DNA of 50,483 nt from Dehalococcoidia bacterium. Lineage in GTDB: Bacteria > Chloroflexota > Dehalococcoidia > Lucifugimonadales > Lucifugimonadaceae. The translations under genes and the position numbers were made by a program. The notes below the pieces were generated by a model that ran no database searches, was not told the origin of the DNA, and worked only from the letters and a program-made list of their open reading frames with translations. Where the stretch lies: positions 1 to 50,483 of the forward strand of contig JAPKCH010000010.1 in NCBI GenBank assembly GCA_026421185.1, read 5' to 3'. This document shows, one piece after another, positions 3,541-50,289 of the stretch (its first letter is position 1; every line of letters begins with the position of its first letter).

Positions 3541-4224
3541 ATGACTAAAAAGGTTTTCCGCGCGGCACTTTTCGATATGGACGACACACTTATAGACAGG
3601 CGTGGGGCGTATGACGAAGTTTATCGCGTTATGTACGACCAGCAAGAGTTGATCCACGGATCTACGAGTTGGGAAGATGCTCTCGAATTCTTTTGGTCGT
3701 TGTCACCCGACAATGCCACTGATGCCAACACCGCTATTTTCGAGATACAGAAGCGATGGCCCGGCGTTCCGGGCGATTCTAAATCGCACTACGATTTCTA
3801 CTTTTCAAACATGGTGAAATTCATGAAAGTGCTTCCCGGTGCTTTTGATTTTGTCGATTGGATGAATTCGAACGAAGTTGTATGGGGCGTTGTCACTAAC
3901 GGAGATCAATTCCAGCATCAGAAAGCTAAGAACACTGGGCTAGATAAGAAGACACCATTCCTTCTAGCATCAAAGCTGTTCGGTCTGGATAAACCCGCTC
4001 CAGAAGTATTCATGGAAGCAGTTCGCTTGCTGAACATCGATGGTCTTAAACCGGAAGAAATTCTGTTTGTTGGCGATAATCCGTACACCGACATCATCGG
4101 TGCCCACGGAGTCGGTATGAAAACCGCTTGGGTCCGTATGGGGCGCGATATGTATCCTGACGATGCGCCAGCACCTGATTACATCATTGACCACGTTGAA
4201 GAATTGAAGCACTGGCTGGCGTAG
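3541..4224 (+). CDS. HAD-superfamily hydrolase (subfamily IA phosphatase)
   Basis: The 227-residue protein shows all four HAD motifs. Motif I is FDMDDT, with nucleophile D12 and acid/base D14. Motif II is the T of GVVTNGD. Motif III is the Lys of FGLDKPAPEVF. Motif IV is VGDNPYTDIIGA. A helical C1 cap lies between motifs I and II, as in phosphoglycolate phosphatase and YjjG-like nucleotidases. It should remove phosphate from a small metabolite in the cytoplasm. It follows the enolase-superfamily gene on the same strand and may be co-transcribed with it, but the substrate cannot be deduced. The gene starts with ATG at 3541. Confidence 0.87.
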   Translation: MTKKVFRAALFDMDDTLIDRRGAYDEVYRVMYDQQELIHGSTSWEDALEFFWSLSPDNATDANTAIFEIQKRWPGVPGDSKSHYDFYFSNMVKFMKVLPGAFDFVDWMNSNEVVWGVVTNGDQFQHQKAKNTGLDKKTPFLLASKLFGLDKPAPEVFMEAVRLLNIDGLKPEEILFVGDNPYTDIIGAHGVGMKTAWVRMGRDMYPDDAPAPDYIIDHVEELKHWLA

Positions 4225-4336
4225 ATTGATGAGCTGCCTGTTCTGTATTTGAACGTAGCTTTGATCAGAACTACTGATTACCACGGCGTTCATTCTTCAA
4301 CGTGGTCAATAACAGGGCTAGACAGATCGGCCGACC

Positions 4337-8135: not shown

Positions 8136-8633
8136 ATGGCAAACCCACTCGTTTCGGTGATTATGGGCAGCACTTCGGATTTACCGACTATGCAGCACGC
8201 AATCGACATACTTGAAGAGCTTGGCGTGCCGCACGAAATTCGTGTCGTGTCGGCTCATCGAACACCCGATCTAATGTTTAAGTACGCCGAAGAGGTGAAA
8301 GATCGCGGAATCAAGGTAATTATTGCCGGTGCAGGCGGTGCTGCTCATCTGCCGGGTATGACGGCAGCAAAGACGATCCTGCCTGTGATCGGCGTGCCGG
8401 GCGTAGGCCCCCACCTCGACGGAATGGATTCGTTGATGTCGATGGTTCAGATGCCACGAGGTTACCCGGTTGGTACCGTAGCCATTGGTGAATGGGGAGC
8501 CGTGAACGCAGGTATCCTCGCTGCTCAGATCGTGGGTCTTATTGACCCTACCATTCAAGACAATATCGAAAAACGTCGTGCGAAGATCACTGACGATATC
8601 GAAGCTGCTACATACATCAAGCCAGAAGCCTAA
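8136..8633 (+). CDS. purE: N5-carboxyaminoimidazole ribonucleotide mutase PurE
   Basis: The 165-residue enzyme moves the carboxyl group of N5-CAIR to give 4-carboxy-AIR in purine synthesis. Class I PurE signatures are complete: [10 protein letters not shown] (10-19), VVSAHRTP with catalytic H41, [11 protein letters not shown], the [20 protein letters not shown] run, and [10 protein letters not shown]. The length is typical for the family. GGAG lies ten bases upstream of the ATG. purK follows 15 bases downstream, as in the standard purEK operon. Bases 8348-8395, coding for the LPGM loop, are repeated exactly inside the permease gene at 12681-12728. Confidence 0.97.
8348..8395 (+). repeat. 48-base exact repeat, copy 1 (within purE)
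   Basis: This copy codes for [16 protein letters not shown], a loop conserved in PurE proteins in general. It is identical base for base to the complement of 12681-12728. The flanking bases differ on both sides. This is the likely donor copy, because the peptide belongs to the PurE family. Confidence 0.95.
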
Positions 8634-8648
8634 CTAGACGGGTAATTA

Positions 8649-9812
8649 ATGGAACGCGAATCACTTTTGAAACCTGGATCGACTATTGGCATCATAGGCG
8701 GTGGACAGTTGGGGCGAATGCTCGCAATTGCCGCTCGCCAGATGGATTACAAGACAATTGTGTTGGATCCAGATCCGGGTTGCCCAACTGGGCAGGTAGC
8801 CGATGGGCAGATTACAGAGGCGTACTCAAGCCGAGATGCGTCTCGTGAGCTTGCTCGTTCGACCGACGTTGTTACTTACGAGTTCGAAAACGTTGATGCT
8901 GACTCCGTTTCAGCGGCGGCTGAACTCAAGCCAGTTCTCCCATCTGCATCTGTTCTGCGAACAACCCAGCATCGATTACATGAGAAGAACGCTCTTCTCA
9001 AAGCAGGTGTTTCTGTTGCTCCGTTCCGAAATGTTGAATCACTGAGTGATCTGCAGAAAGCTGCGGTTGATCTTGGGTACCCTATGGTGCTGAAGACATC
9101 TACTCAGGGTTACGATGGTAAGGGGCAGATGATCATCACCCGTGCGGAAGATATTGAGCATTCTTACGAAGTTCTTAGTAGCCCTAAAGTTGAATTGATC
9201 GTCGAACAGTTCGTTCCGTTCCAGATGGAAATTTCGACAATTTGCGCCCGGACTGCTGATGGCACAACTGCAACATTCCCACCTGCAGAGAATATTCACC
9301 TTAATCATATTCTTGATGTATCAATAGTTCCGCCGAGAGTATCGGAAGCTGTTATCGAGAAGGCTCGATTGCTCGCAGCATATATTGCTGATGAGCTCGA
9401 TGTAGTCGGGCTTATTTCAGTTGAAATGTTCGTTACGAAAGAGAACGAACTGTTAGTAAACGAGCTGGCGCCACGCCCTCACAATTCAGGCCACTACACG
9501 ATGGACGGTTGTGACACTTCACAGTTCGAGCAGTTGGTGCGAGTGCTGGCAGGGTTGCCTATTTCTGAACCTCACCTTCACTCGCCAACCGTGATGGTGA
9601 ATCTGCTTGGTGAAGTGTGGGTAGACACCGATGGTGACCCCGATTGGGGATGTGCGCTCGAATTGCCTGGCGTGAGCTTGCACTTGTACGGCAAGGCTGA
9701 GCCACGAGTGGGACGCAAGATGGGGCACATCAACGTGGTTGCTGAAACTGTTGAAGATGCGCTGCACATTGCCACACAGGCAAGAGACAGGGCATGGCGG
9801 CGCAGCCGGTAG
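8649..9812 (+). CDS. purK: 5-(carboxyamino)imidazole ribonucleotide synthase PurK
   Basis: The 387-residue ATP-grasp enzyme carboxylates AIR to N5-CAIR, the substrate of PurE. The N-terminal nucleotide-binding start GIIGGGQLGRML is diagnostic. It is followed by VVTYEFENVD, VLKTSTQGYDGKGQ (ATP-grasp), EQFVPF, VEMFVT and NELAPRPHNSGHYTMDGC, all typical of PurK. It lies 15 bases after purE. A 7-bp hairpin overlaps its stop codon. Confidence 0.96.
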   Translation: MERESLLKPGSTIGIIGGGQLGRMLAIAARQMDYKTIVLDPDPGCPTGQVADGQITEAYSSRDASRELARSTDVVTYEFENVDADSVSAAAELKPVLPSASVLRTTQHRLHEKNALLKAGVSVAPFRNVESLSDLQKAAVDLGYPMVLKTSTQGYDGKGQMIITRAEDIEHSYEVLSSPKVELIVEQFVPFQMEISTICARTADGTTATFPPAENIHLNHILDVSIVPPRVSEAVIEKARLLAAYIADELDVVGLISVEMFVTKENELLVNELAPRPHNSGHYTMDGCDTSQFEQLVRVLAGLPISEPHLHSPTVMVNLLGEVWVDTDGDPDWGCALELPGVSLHLYGKAEPRVGRKMGHINVVAETVEDALHIATQARDRAWRRSR

Positions 9813-9839: not shown

Positions 9840-10622
9840 TTATTCGTCCGAATCCGGGCGTTTGAACTGAGAGTGGGTGTCGACGTTTTTGCCTGATTCA
9901 GTTAGTTCGATCTCGCCGTTGTGAACGGTGTAAATCTTGTCGGACATATCGAGAAGCGTGCGGTCGTGAGTTGTTGCCACGATAGACATGTCTTCTTCAG
10001 TGACCATCTGACGGAACAGTCCGAAAATCTCGGCAGCGTTCACAGAATCAAGTTCACCTGTCGGTTCGTCAGCAAGAATTACATTCGGCTTCATGGCGAC
10101 TGCACGAGCGATAGAGATACGCTGCTGTTCACCACCGGACAGTTCGTATGGACGGTGCTTAGCTCGGCGGCCTAACCCGACGATATCTAGTACTTCGTTC
10201 GTGCGCTTCGATCGTTCGGAAGCGCCAATGCCAGCTATTCGCATCGGAAGTTCTACGTTCTCGTATGCAGATAGGAGCGGAAGTAGCGCAAACGACTGGA
10301 ATACCACACCAATTCGGTGACGTCGCAGTTGGATGAACTGCTTCTCGCTAAATTTCTCCATGTCTTCGCCTTCGAACAGCACTTGGCCTGATGTTGGGTG
10401 GTCGAGACCAGCCAACATGTTCAAAAGCGTGGTTTTTCCGGAGCCGGAACGACCAACAAGAGTGATAAATTCACCGATTCTTACGTCGAGATCAACTTCT
10501 AGAACAGCGTGAACTGTTTCGCCAGAGAGTTCGTATTCACGAGATGCTTTGATTGCCTGAATAATTGGAGTGGTGGCACCACGTGATTCTTTGGCTATAG
10601 TCTGCTCAGTCGCCTGATTCAA
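9840..10622 (-). CDS. ABC transporter ATP-binding protein (MacB/LolD type)
   Basis: The 260-residue ATPase has Walker A GRSGSGKT (57-64), the Q-loop in VVFQSFALLP, the signature LSGGEQQR, Walker B VILADEPTGELD and the H-loop in TTHD. These are the traits of ATPases that drive FtsX/MacB-type permeases from the cytoplasm. It starts with TTG at 10622, inside the end of the preceding ATPase gene (17-base overlap), with AGGG a few bases upstream; the two are probably translationally coupled. It is the last gene of the four-gene operon. The exported substrate is unknown. Confidence 0.92.
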   Translation of the reverse strand: MNQATEQTIAKESRGATTPIIQAIKASREYELSGETVHAVLEVDLDVRIGEFITLVGRSGSGKTTLLNMLAGLDHPTSGQVLFEGEDMEKFSEKQFIQLRRHRIGVVFQSFALLPLLSAYENVELPMRIAGIGASERSKRTNEVLDIVGLGRRAKHRPYELSGGEQQRISIARAVAMKPNVILADEPTGELDSVNAAEIFGLFRQMVTEEDMSIVATTHDRTLLDMSDKIYTVHNGEIELTESGKNVDTHSQFKRPDSDE

Positions 10623-11484
10623 GTGTCACCCTTCCATCCTTCATATCTACTCGGACTCTCCGTCCGATATTCAGTTCATCGAGAATATCTCGAGGAATCT
10701 GTACTGACCCTCCCGAGTCGATCAGCAAGAACTCTTCTGTGTCACTGGTACCACCACCGAGTTTTCGTTCGAATGAAACTTCTCTGGTGGTTTCTGTACT
10801 GGTTTTGCCGTCCTTGATAGCAACGGCACGACCAACGCTGGTTGCGATTGCAGGGTCGTGAGTAACGATGACGATAGTTGTTCCGATGTCTTGGTTTACC
10901 TTGTTTAGAAGTTCAAGAACTTCTTTACCGGTTTTGTCGTCTAGTTCACCAGTCGGTTCGTCTGCTAGTAGTAAAGGCGGTTGGTTGGACAGCCCTACTG
11001 CGATGGCGACACGCTGTTGCTCGCCACCGGAAAGCTGTGCAGGTTTGTGGGCGGACCGATCGCCAAGACCTACAACATTGAGTAGCTCTTGAGCACGTTC
11101 TCTGCGATCAGAACCCGAAGCTCCTGATATGACCATTGGTAGCTCGACGTTTTCAAGCGCTGTTAGATATGGAAACAGGTTCCGTGATGTTTCCTGCCAT
11201 ATGAAGCCGACTTCGTGACGACGGTATTCGACAACTTCTTTATTGGTCATCTGAAGCAAATCGTAGTCGCCCACTCGGATTGTTCCGGCCGAAGGAGCGT
11301 CGTAGCCAGCGAGAATGTTTAGAAGTGTAGATTTACCACTACCTGATGCACCTACGATAGCGATGATTTCGCCAGCGGTGACATTGAGTTCAAGCCCGCG
11401 TAATGCCACGACTTCAAGATCGGCAGCTTTGTAGATCTTGAATAGACCATTGCAATCGATATAAGCAGAATTCGGTGTTGTCAC
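10606..11484 (-). CDS. ABC transporter ATP-binding protein with AbrB-like C-terminal domain
   Basis: Residues 1-230 form a MacB/LolD-type ATPase: Walker A GASGSGKS (45-52), signature LSGGEQQR, Walker B LLLADEPTGELD and H-loop THDPA. After a linker of about 20 residues, residues 248-292 resemble a SpoVT/AbrB swapped-hairpin domain (LLIDSGGSVQIPRDILDELN, then RRVRVDMKDGRVTLE). AbrB domains normally bind DNA as dimers. In an ABC ATPase the domain may instead serve dimerisation or regulation, which is inference. It lies 40 bases after the 1184-residue permease gene and overlaps the second ATPase gene. Two ATPases beside two permeases suggest a hetero-oligomeric exporter. Confidence 0.9.
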   Translation of the reverse strand: MTTPNSAYIDCNGLFKIYKAADLEVVALRGLELNVTAGEIIAIVGASGSGKSTLLNILAGYDAPSAGTIRVGDYDLLQMTNKEVVEYRRHEVGFIWQETSRNLFPYLTALENVELPMVISGASGSDRRERAQELLNVVGLGDRSAHKPAQLSGGEQQRVAIAVGLSNQPPLLLADEPTGELDDKTGKEVLELLNKVNQDIGTTIVIVTHDPAIATSVGRAVAIKDGKTSTETTREVSFERKLGGGTSDTEEFLLIDSGGSVQIPRDILDELNIGRRVRVDMKDGRVTLESGD

Positions 11485-11524: not shown

Positions 11525-14500
11525 TTAACTTTCACCCATTCTCATGATGCGGTGTATCGACATTCGGTAGACGGAAATCAGGATAAGCCCAATGACCACG
11601 AGGAATACTACCCCCAAAAGGCCGAAAGTGATTCCAAATCCTAACCAGTCTATTTTAACTGCCATAGGTGGGACGACTACAGCATTTTCGCCTGAACTGG
11701 CGAGGTACGGCATTATCGTTGAACCCATTCGGGCGCCCATTAGTATTCCGAGTGCGACTGCAACCCCGATTACCATCACCTGTTCCAATACAACAAGGAA
11801 CAGCATTTGTTTCATAGAGAGTCCGATAGTTCGCAACAGAGCCAGCTCTGTACGGCGTCCATCGAACGAGACTTTTGCATGAACCAAGAATCCAATGGCG
11901 CTAACGATTAGCACTGTAAAGAAAGCGATACCGAGCAGCGCTCGCCAGCCTGCAGAGACGAGCGGGTCGAACGCCACACCTGCTAGTTCTTGGCTTCGAT
12001 CAAGTACGTTTGAGCCTGGTCGAATTCGAAGAGCCGAAAGTTTGTTTATTATATCTGGTATCGCTCGATCACCTGCGACCACTGATTCAAGAACGCCTTC
12101 TTCTGACAAGAGCAGTTCGGAACCTTGTATCGTCGAAATCCAATATTCTGTCGGCTGAATATTGCCGGTGGTTCGAGTGATGTTTAGGCGTTCGTGAATT
12201 GATTCAAAATCAGCTATCAGGAACGGCTTTTCATCGAGTGCAAGAGTTGGGAAGTAGTCGATTACATCACGAATGGAAATATTAAACGGGACTCCGTCGA
12301 GGGCGATTTGAATAGGTTTGCCTTCCTCACCGCCATAACGTTCGATGAACGTTGTGCTTGCGATGACTGGTACGATTTCCAACTCAGATCCGTGAGCCAG
12401 CCCACGATATTCACGCGGAAGAGATGATGTCCAGCGAAGTCGAGCTACGCCTTCAACTGGCGTGCCATCAGGCAAACTCGCATAACCAAGATTGTCACCG
12501 AGTGCTTCGCGGGTCGGAGCCATCGTTCGCCAGTTGTTGACGGAATCGAATGTTTCGATGATGACTAGTTCAGTTCCGGTCTCATCTAGCACCGCAATGT
12601 CGTCGATATCTATAGCTGCTGGGGCAAGACCATTTTCGTAGTCGATCACGCCGATCGAATGAAGACGAATCGGTAACTTTACGCCGATCACAGGCAGGAT
12701 CGTCTTTGCTGCCGTCATACCCGGCAGAGGAATAAGTCCTCGCACACCGCGGAACGGTGTAGCTTGAATGGCGGAACCGATGCGGCACCATTCTGGCGAT
12801 TCACCATCTACGGGAACACCGCAGTTGAATCTCAATTGGTCAGACGCCAATGGGACCATCGTTCCGAGTGGAACTGAGAAAAATTGTCCGTTCGCATCCG
12901 ACAATCTGGCGACTAAGAAAGTTGATGGTTGCCTGATTAGCGGCAAGATTCGTGCAGTGAGCCAGCGTCCATTTGTCGGAAGCTCGATTCCTGCCGCTCC
13001 ACCGACGTTGAGCACTGCTGCCTTCTGGTCGAACGGAGAAAGATCAAAGTCCTCTCTGAACCATCCAACGTCTTCGATGGTGTCGATATTGACTCCAATG
13101 AACTGGAATCCCTCGACGTTCACCCCTGAGGTGATGTTTGCCGTTTCACGATAAATCGGTGAAGCAGCCTCAACATTTTCTAGTTCGCTTAGTTCGTCAA
13201 CTACAGAGACCGATACTCCATTATCACGAATGTTTAAGCCCGTGATTTTTACATCAGCGCCAGTGCGATAGTAGGCAGTGTCGATAGCGCTTTGCTGGAG
13301 GGTTGCTCCAAAGCTCGACGCGAACACGCCCAAAGCGGCTGTAAGGATCAGCAGCAGGGAGAGTCGAGAGTGGTGCGCAGGGTTTCGTGCCATTTGCCAG
13401 ATTACGAGAATAAACGCAGGTGGTGTGATTTTTGTCAACGGACGTCTCGACAGAATCCTGCCAGTGAAGTCCATCGCAACTGGGAATATTCTGAGCAGTA
13501 CCAAACCAGCAGCTACGAGGAAAATCGCAGGAACTCCAAGGATGAGCTGATTGACCGTAGTTTCACCAAAAATACTTACTGCTACGAACGAACCCTGCTT
13601 GGTGAGTTGCCAGAAAAGGAACATCACTAAGGCCAAGAATCCGAGATCTAGATAGTAGCGTTGAACGAGAGCCAACTTGGCAGGGCGCGCTCGTGAAACT
13701 CGACTTGCAAGTAATCCTAATCGAGTGGCTCTGAGTGCAGGAATAAATAGCGCTAGTAAGCCTAGAAGCCCTCCAAAGAACGCCATTCGGAATGCAGCGA
13801 GGGTCAGTCTTACTGGTAGTGGGTCTCCACCGTTTAGTTCGCTGTATATTGGCAGTACACCGATGAATCCAACTCCGAGCAGCGCAAGGAATGGACCGGT
13901 GACTGCGGCAATTGCCGCAAGGAATCCAGCTTCGATTACAAATACTGCGAGAATCTGACGAGATGTTGCTCCACGAGTTCGTAGTAGCTCTACTTCGCTG
14001 CGCTGCGCGTCTACTAGTAGTGACGCCAGTGTTACGACGTAGTAGAGAACGACGAGAACGATCAGGATCAACACGATGAACATCGGAAGCCGGTTGAAAA
14101 ACAGATCTGTTTCGAATGCGCTCAAAACTTGAGGGAGATCGGAACGAAGTAAGAAGCCGTCGACGATTGCTTTGAGTTCACGCTCGGTCGCATCTATGGT
14201 GTTTCGAATCGATTCGGTTTCAGATGCTGCAATGCGTTCTGGGTCGATATCGAGCCACCATGCATAGTCGGTTCCCATATTCGGGAAGTACGGGCCGAGT
14301 CCTTCAAGGATGGTTTGTTCAGGAACTACGAATCGAGCGAACTGAAGAGTGTCGGTTCGAGATCCGAATGCTTCGTTCTGAATTCGCCAGTGATCCTTTT
14401 CAGGATCGGCACGTTCGTACAGGCCCGTAACGAGAATATTTACCCTGTCGTGGGTATCTTCCCAATGTGGTCGCGCAGGGTAGATATCGCCAACACTGAT

Positions 14501-15079
14501 GCCCATTGCTGACGCTGATTGCACATCGATAATTCCTTCGATATGGAGCGAATCATCAGATGCAATGGTAGTTGCTGGACGCGCTAGCGACCCTTCGACG
14601 ATATTTACACGATTTTCGACTTTAGGGAGTGTCATCATCGTGACTCGTCGGCAGTCACATTCGATTAATCCATCGGCATCGCCTGAATTAGTGCCGAGGT
14701 TCGAGCTACAAGGACAATCAGCGGGATCCACTAAGGCTGGAGGCAAGTCTACGAAGAAAGTCCAAGTTTTTATTGCGAACTCAGTTTGATCTAGAAAATG
14801 ACTGAAATTACGAACGATTGAGCCATTCATCGCATCGACCATCACTGAATGCGTTTCAGGATTTGTGGGCACTTGCCCCGCTTCTACTAACACGTCGAGC
14901 TCTGATTGTTCATGAGTCGAGAGTGCGCGTTGAAGAGCTACGTCTCGCAGAGCGTCGAAGAAGATAACCGAACTCGCCATGATCGTAGACGCGAGAACAA
15001 CACCCACTACAACTGCTGAGAGCAGTCGCCAGTGAGAAAGCGTTCGCTTAACGATGAGTTGGAAAGAGTTACCGATCAT
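11525..15079 (-). CDS. Large FtsX-type ABC transporter permease (B)
   Basis: The 1184-residue membrane protein has an N-terminal transmembrane helix (about 17-40). A large extracytoplasmic region follows, then a cluster of helices with an FtsX core (about 330-600). A second extracytoplasmic region and a C-terminal FtsX domain (about 1020-1184, with RRTELALLRTIGLS) complete it. SRVSRARPAKLALVQRYYLD is the conserved cytoplasmic link. It is a paralogue of the next gene upstream. Its ATG overlaps that gene's stop by four bases (ATGA), so translation is coupled. Residues encoded by 12681-12728 ([16 protein letters not shown]) are copied exactly from purE and have no counterpart in the paralogue. 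The substrate is unknown; lipid, lipoprotein or peptide export is typical for the family. Confidence 0.9.
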   Translation of the reverse strand: MIGNSFQLIVKRTLSHWRLLSAVVVGVVLASTIMASSVIFFDALRDVALQRALSTHEQSELDVLVEAGQVPTNPETHSVMVDAMNGSIVRNFSHFLDQTEFAIKTWTFFVDLPPALVDPADCPCSSNLGTNSGDADGLIECDCRRVTMMTLPKVENRVNIVEGSLARPATTIASDDSLHIEGIIDVQSASAMGISVGDIYPARPHWEDTHDRVNILVTGLYERADPEKDHWRIQNEAFGSRTDTLQFARFVVPEQTILEGLGPYFPNMGTDYAWWLDIDPERIAASETESIRNTIDATERELKAIVDGFLLRSDLPQVLSAFETDLFFNRLPMFIVLILIVLVVLYYVVTLASLLVDAQRSEVELLRTRGATSRQILAVFVIEAGFLAAIAAVTGPFLALLGVGFIGVLPIYSELNGGDPLPVRLTLAAFRMAFFGGLLGLLALFIPALRATRLGLLASRVSRARPAKLALVQRYYLDLGFLALVMFLFWQLTKQGSFVAVSIFGETTVNQLILGVPAIFLVAAGLVLLRIFPVAMDFTGRILSRRPLTKITPPAFILVIWQMARNPAHHSRLSLLLILTAALGVFASSFGATLQQSAIDTAYYRTGADVKITGLNIRDNGVSVSVVDELSELENVEAASPIYRETANITSGVNVEGFQFIGVNIDTIEDVGWFREDFDLSPFDQKAAVLNVGGAAGIELPTNGRWLTARILPLIRQPSTFLVARLSDANGQFFSVPLGTMVPLASDQLRFNCGVPVDGESPEWCRIGSAIQATPFRGVRGLIPLPGMTAAKTILPVIGVKLPIRLHSIGVIDYENGLAPAAIDIDDIAVLDETGTELVIIETFDSVNNWRTMAPTREALGDNLGYASLPDGTPVEGVARLRWTSSLPREYRGLAHGSELEIVPVIASTTFIERYGGEEGKPIQIALDGVPFNISIRDVIDYFPTLALDEKPFLIADFESIHERLNITRTTGNIQPTEYWISTIQGSELLLSEEGVLESVVAGDRAIPDIINKLSALRIRPGSNVLDRSQELAGVAFDPLVSAGWRALLGIAFFTVLIVSAIGFLVHAKVSFDGRRTELALLRTIGLSMKQMLFLVVLEQVMVIGVAVALGILMGARMGSTIMPYLASSGENAVVVPPMAVKIDWLGFGITFGLLGVVFLVVIGLILISVYRMSIHRIMRMGES
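12681..12728 (-). repeat. 48-base exact repeat, copy 2 (within permease B)
   Basis: Read on the minus strand, this is identical to 8348-8395 of purE, with the first base in the third codon position in both genes. The same 16-residue peptide is therefore read. The stretch is 16 codons long and leaves the permease frame intact. The flanks read RGLIP before and KLPIRLHSIGV after, and look like ordinary permease sequence. Confidence 0.95.
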
Positions 15080-50258: not shown

Positions 50259-50289
50259 AAGCCCTTCTCAATTGAGAAGGGCTTTTTTT
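50259..50289 (+). terminator. Rho-independent terminator of rpmB
   Basis: AAGCCCTTCTC (50259-50269) pairs perfectly with GAGAAGGGCTT (50274-50284) around AATT, followed by a run of T to 50289. It also has an A-rich left side. Confidence 0.95.

Follow-up and report, generated by a model that had tools for sequence, protein, structure and literature searches.

An exact inverted copy of 48 nucleotides of purE within an ABC permease gene of a Dehalococcoidia bacterium

The copied tract, its two genes and the relatives

How did 16 codons identical to a part of purE come to stand, on the opposite strand, within an ABC permease gene of a Dehalococcoidia bacterium? Both genes are located in the stretch of DNA that we analysed (the window; 50,483 nt of contig JAPKCH010000010.1). 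The reverse complement of positions 12681-12728, which encode residues 785-800 of the permease (reverse strand), is identical at 48 of 48 bases to positions 8348-8395 of purE (forward strand). The initial annotation had thus correctly reported an exact 48-base purE copy within the permease gene, with no mutations between the copies (0 differences over 48 bases). When the pair is extended by three bases, 50 of 51 match. The donor gene (8136-8633, forward strand) encodes AIR carboxylase/N5-CAIR mutase (PF00731, E 1.4e-61), and the recipient (11525-15079, reverse strand) encodes an FtsX/MacB-type ABC permease (FtsX, PF02687, E 3.7e-16; structural matches to MacB and LolE), whose flanks around the insert stay in frame, as had also been noted, in an intact ORF of 1184 aa. 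The tract starts at the third codon base in both genes (CCT in the permease, CAT in purE), in agreement with the same reading phase first described, and both copies translate to the same 16 residues.

Two ABC ATPase genes (9840-11484, PF00005 in both) are found between donor and recipient, on the permease strand; and purE is followed by an ORF (8649-9812, forward strand), convergent with these genes, that we take to be purK-like from its position and sequence. In relatives, too, purE and the permease are a few kb apart and in opposite orientation, so donor and target were already close before the event. Several further MacB-like permease paralogues are present in the same genome, on contigs C70, C46, and C65.

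The donor and copy arms form an inverted pair with a spacing of 4,285 nt. Searching a 221-base query around the insert against the whole genome returned only itself and purE (E 9.4e-19). The 48-nt inverted pair is far beyond chance, because those that follow it in length within the window are much shorter or less exact (30 nt at 83%, 20 nt at 90%, 19 nt at 89%, and 16 nt exact). The 30-nt pair is an imperfect inverted repeat at 4186-4215 and 4281-4310, with its arms 65 nt apart.

The bacterium represents a marine lineage related to Candidatus Lucifugimonas, a member of SAR202 (Chloroflexota). The placement of Lucifugimonas in SAR202 agrees with PMC10444878. The relatives include Candidatus Lucifugimonas marina JH1073 (CP046147), and Chloroflexi and Dehalococcoidia MAGs. 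A protein search against the bacterium's own genome and 39 relatives found permease orthologues in all 18 same-genus relatives, and in others. We aligned the permease with those of 22 relatives, of which 18 belong to its genus and the other 4 to its family (two rows are incomplete in regions away from the insert). All 22 are without exactly these 16 codons, and both flanks align, most same-genus rows reading GLLP before the insert and xxPIRLHSIGV after it. Consistently, the permease is 1,184 aa long, as compared to 1,166-1,175 aa in the 16 full-length same-genus orthologues, and the alignment gives a net gain of exactly 48 bases, with no permease codons lost. A family-wide search of 76 genomes gave permease matches in 40 (own genome included). 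The other family loci that were returned and re-aligned are all without the insert (29 of 29); among the other 10 matching genomes, two (G020 and G023) are in the 22-relative alignment and eight lie outside both alignments. No match was obtained in 36 genomes; of these, G019 and G021 do appear in the 22-relative alignment, and the others are uninformative. The insert is known from one genome only, so that the support for its reality and fixation comes from a single assembly.

In the tree, the permease sits on a terminal branch (0.15 changes per column) among the same-genus rows; forks nearby are weakly supported. Because the aligned relatives are without the 16 codons and have both flanks, the 16 codons represent a precise insertion on the terminal branch of this lineage, not shared ancestry. 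The insertion of 16 whole codons, as first proposed, is borne out by the relatives, which show a gain of exactly 16 with no permease sequence lost, and none of the permease alleles compared carries a diverged version of the peptide.

A homologous tract was found in the purE of 15 relatives, each with 7-16 of the 48 bases unlike those of the insert (6-13 of the 16 third positions in 14 of the relatives). Since the bacterium's own purE differs at none, the donor is the purE of its own lineage. By a rough estimate (a simple correction, the least diverged relative, 16 sites only, with some comparisons saturated), the event falls at 95% within about the final third (0.36) of the time that has passed since the split from the least diverged relative, so that the event is indeed recent relative to the split of the relatives, as the identity of the two copies had suggested. 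If gene conversion later acted between the two copies, the event would look younger than it is.

How the tract may have arisen

Our reading is that a 48-nt piece of purE was probably copied once, recently and in inverted orientation, into the MacB/LolE-type permease gene 4.3 kb away. A 3′ end that had stalled or broken during replication or repair would have used the opposite strand at purE as its template (alternatively, a short single-stranded purE fragment would have been captured at this step), and synthesis would then have resumed at the original point. The frame, the lack of stops, and a tolerant, apparently disordered loop would have let the insert survive selection; no function of the peptide is needed by this explanation. 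Copying linked to replication or repair, from the inverted donor, is favoured, and capture of a short fragment is its main rival. The earlier suggestion of copying from a template is accordingly plausible, although the data do not distinguish it from fragment capture.

The joins bear on both. Microhomology at the left join is 0 or 1 nt, depending on whether the ancestral codon was CCA or CCT, and the right join has none; the 1-nt option requires an extra A at the right join, too. Joins with at most 1 nt of microhomology and a clean return to the departure point are unusual for template switching, and fit the inverted switches of E. coli less well. The permease carries the 10-mer GATCGGCGTG (12647-12656, reverse strand) at a distance of 24 nt downstream from the insert, and the 10-mer is found again across the right edge of the purE donor tract; it is off the join, and a 10-mer is shared in 1.4% of shuffled flanks. 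As a switching site it yields no path to the observed product and was rejected. The chance of a donor this near is 17% within the window and 1.7% within the 520 kb sampled, and the nearness lends weak support to local copying, since the pair was noticed by looking within a single window. The distance of 4.3 kb is larger than the fork dimension of E. coli, which PMC3161906 quotes as 1.5 kb.

Under capture, a single- or double-stranded purE fragment of about 48 nt, left by degradation or excision, would have entered the permease gene at a break or gap, with no template switching by a polymerase. This route is possible, if on balance unlikely. The blunt joins, with no target bases lost and essentially no microhomology, speak for it, and short intragenomic fragments reportedly integrate in Acinetobacter baylyi; on the other side, a local donor calls for no special reason under this model, and the proteins looked for were not found. 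The genome is estimated to be 96.6% complete, so the following absences are likely, not certain: of 12 same-genus genomes searched, this one among them, none yielded Ku, which makes classical end joining unlikely; the search of this genome for a ComEC-type competence domain was negative (10 of 14 control genomes were positive), which makes uptake from outside less likely; and reverse transcriptase (PF00078) was not found in it either (3 of 14 control genomes were positive). We rejected Ku-dependent end joining and a retro-copy made by reverse transcriptase on these grounds.

Artefact, recurrence and tolerance in the permease

The initial annotation had also raised an assembly error, which can be split into two cases: a mis-join at the repeat, and chimeric molecules. 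At contig ends, seven sampled pairs overlap by exactly 55 nt. One of these overlaps is between positions 1-55 of the window and the end of contig C24 (54486-54540), which makes C24 a candidate neighbour of the window's left end. We infer from the overlaps that the assembler used a k of 55; as this exceeds the 48-nt repeat, the reads must have carried the whole insert and some flank, and a mis-join in the graph through the repeat is unlikely and was rejected. The concern about an assembly error is thereby much reduced but not removed, as the overlaps do not speak against chimeric molecules. That the contig was built from chimeras formed in the library or by amplification is, in our view, quite improbable. 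The insert is carried by a single genome, and whole-genome amplification is known to join neighbouring sites into inverted chimeras; but such an artefact needs two joins in one molecule, with the permease restored at the exact base, and the chimera must also outnumber the true molecules at the site. The insert is moreover in frame, the inferred k is longer than the repeat, and 520 kb of the genome hold no further isolated repeat of 24 nt or more, so the assembly is not chimera-rich.

This last count comes from a filter for exact dispersed repeats of at least 24 nt, from which pairs at contig ends, near-tandem pairs (<200 nt), and pairs with similar flanks were dropped. In our sample of the bacterium's genome (519,699 bases, 24% of the genome), the 48-mer is the only repeat left. 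Comparing the whole window to the whole genome revealed no other such copy; the remaining matches are weaker, are palindromes, or represent the contig-end overlap. The same filter applied to relatives left 75 pairs in G013 (400 kb), 14 in G012 (200 kb), one in G019 (200 kb), and one in 11 loci (L062-L072); judged by eye, the G013 and G012 pairs belong for the most part to short palindromic repeats. Six pairs, including two (38 and 47 nt) from the unfiltered list, were compared with ORFs of at least 80 aa, and only for the 38-nt pair, which represents two paralogues, are both members in ORFs. A single case, rare in the sample, does not on its own show a recurrent process.

Repeats of other kinds were also noticed. 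An isolated 32-nt direct repeat is present in a relative (L069:8494 and 9609, 1.1 kb apart), with only one copy in short ORFs. Short palindromic repeats of the TGTCATTCTGAA...TTCAGAATGACA type are dispersed in G013 (L095-L114) and G012 (L125-L134); per 100 kb, their core TGTCRTYCT is present 16.0 times in the G013 sample, 11.5 in the G012 sample, 2.7 in the bacterium's own sample, and 0.5 in G019. These repeats seem to have expanded in some Lucifugimonas genomes and to be scarce in this one. A perfect 26-nt palindrome, AAGCCCTTCTCAATTGAGAAGGGCTT, is located at 50259-50284 of the window and may be a bidirectional terminator; a similar 30-nt palindrome is found in G012.

We modelled residues 590-1055 of the permease using AlphaFold2 (21-row alignment, mean pLDDT 76.5). 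The insert corresponds to model residues 196-211, which lie partly within and partly just past the only stretch below 50 pLDDT (189-209), between two strands, and in the alignment the length of this loop varies among same-family members. The best solved matches of the model are MacB and LolCDE (low TM-scores of 0.31-0.32 on the query, E about 2e-4), which is consistent with the FtsX match. The insert thus falls in a low-confidence, length-variable and probably disordered loop of a predicted MacB/LolE-like extracytoplasmic domain, and the best reading is that the insert was kept as it is in frame and harmless. It would be very surprising if the purE loop had instead been recruited and selected for a function in the transporter. 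The frame, the shared phase, and the intact ORF would fit such a role; however, the predicted loop is of low confidence and probably disordered, and no substitutions have accumulated that could reveal selection. In addition, the donor tract is free of stops in five of the six combinations of orientation and phase (the real one included), so the shared phase needs no selection and may be a coincidence; among 48-nt tracts of the window, 51% are without stops.

We give practically no credence to a mobile or repeated element, or to shared ancestry or convergence of the two peptides: a sequence is indeed repeated in two genes, but the rejection of a repeat family or element follows from there being only two copies in the genome, with neither target duplication nor inverted ends visible, and that of ancestry or convergence from all synonymous positions matching the bacterium's own purE only, and from the orthologues, all of which, where aligned, are without the insert.

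Meaning and comparison with known systems

The case is an unusually clean natural one, from a bacterium whose genome yielded no Ku: the donor, target, orientation, boundaries, and ancestral state can all be read. Similar cases would let one measure the rate at which unrelated coding sequence is pasted in frame into other genes. A wider proposal, that in marine SAR202 inverted copying nearly free of microhomology now and then carries short coding pieces, in frame, from one gene into an unrelated neighbour, is a conjecture that we consider improbable. If it were true, such copying would amount to a small-scale shuffling of protein segments that is missed by whole-gene comparisons.

Similar to templated insertion mutations, the insert has bases identical to another place in its own genome (48 of 48, the second place being unique), and in the aligned relatives the ancestral site is insert-free, with continuous flanks. 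In Acinetobacter baylyi, short-patch double illegitimate recombination reportedly places short intragenomic pieces into unrelated genes, and is said to replace a short segment between two microhomologies; the permease differs in having a pure insertion, with nothing replaced and microhomology lacking. FoSTeS/MMBIR and the long-distance switch in E. coli (PMC3161906) involve, as in the permease, an inverted copy from a nearby place and then a return. The E. coli inverted template-switch junctions described in PMC3161906 carry microhomology and involve mostly kilobase segments, whereas the permease insert is 48 nt, with 0-1 nt at its joins and no net loss; the microhomology expected of MMBIR/FoSTeS is not seen at the permease joins (at most 1 nt at the left, none at the right). 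Template switching between inverted repeats in yeast (PMC8604942) also alters coding sequence by inverted template copying. In the yeast events, however, the arms of existing repeats become homogenised or spacers are inverted, with substitutions as a result; the permease, in contrast, gained a new 16-codon segment from an unrelated gene. Seen against these systems, the locus holds a well-resolved single templated insertion, which is ordinary in kind and not a new kind of system.
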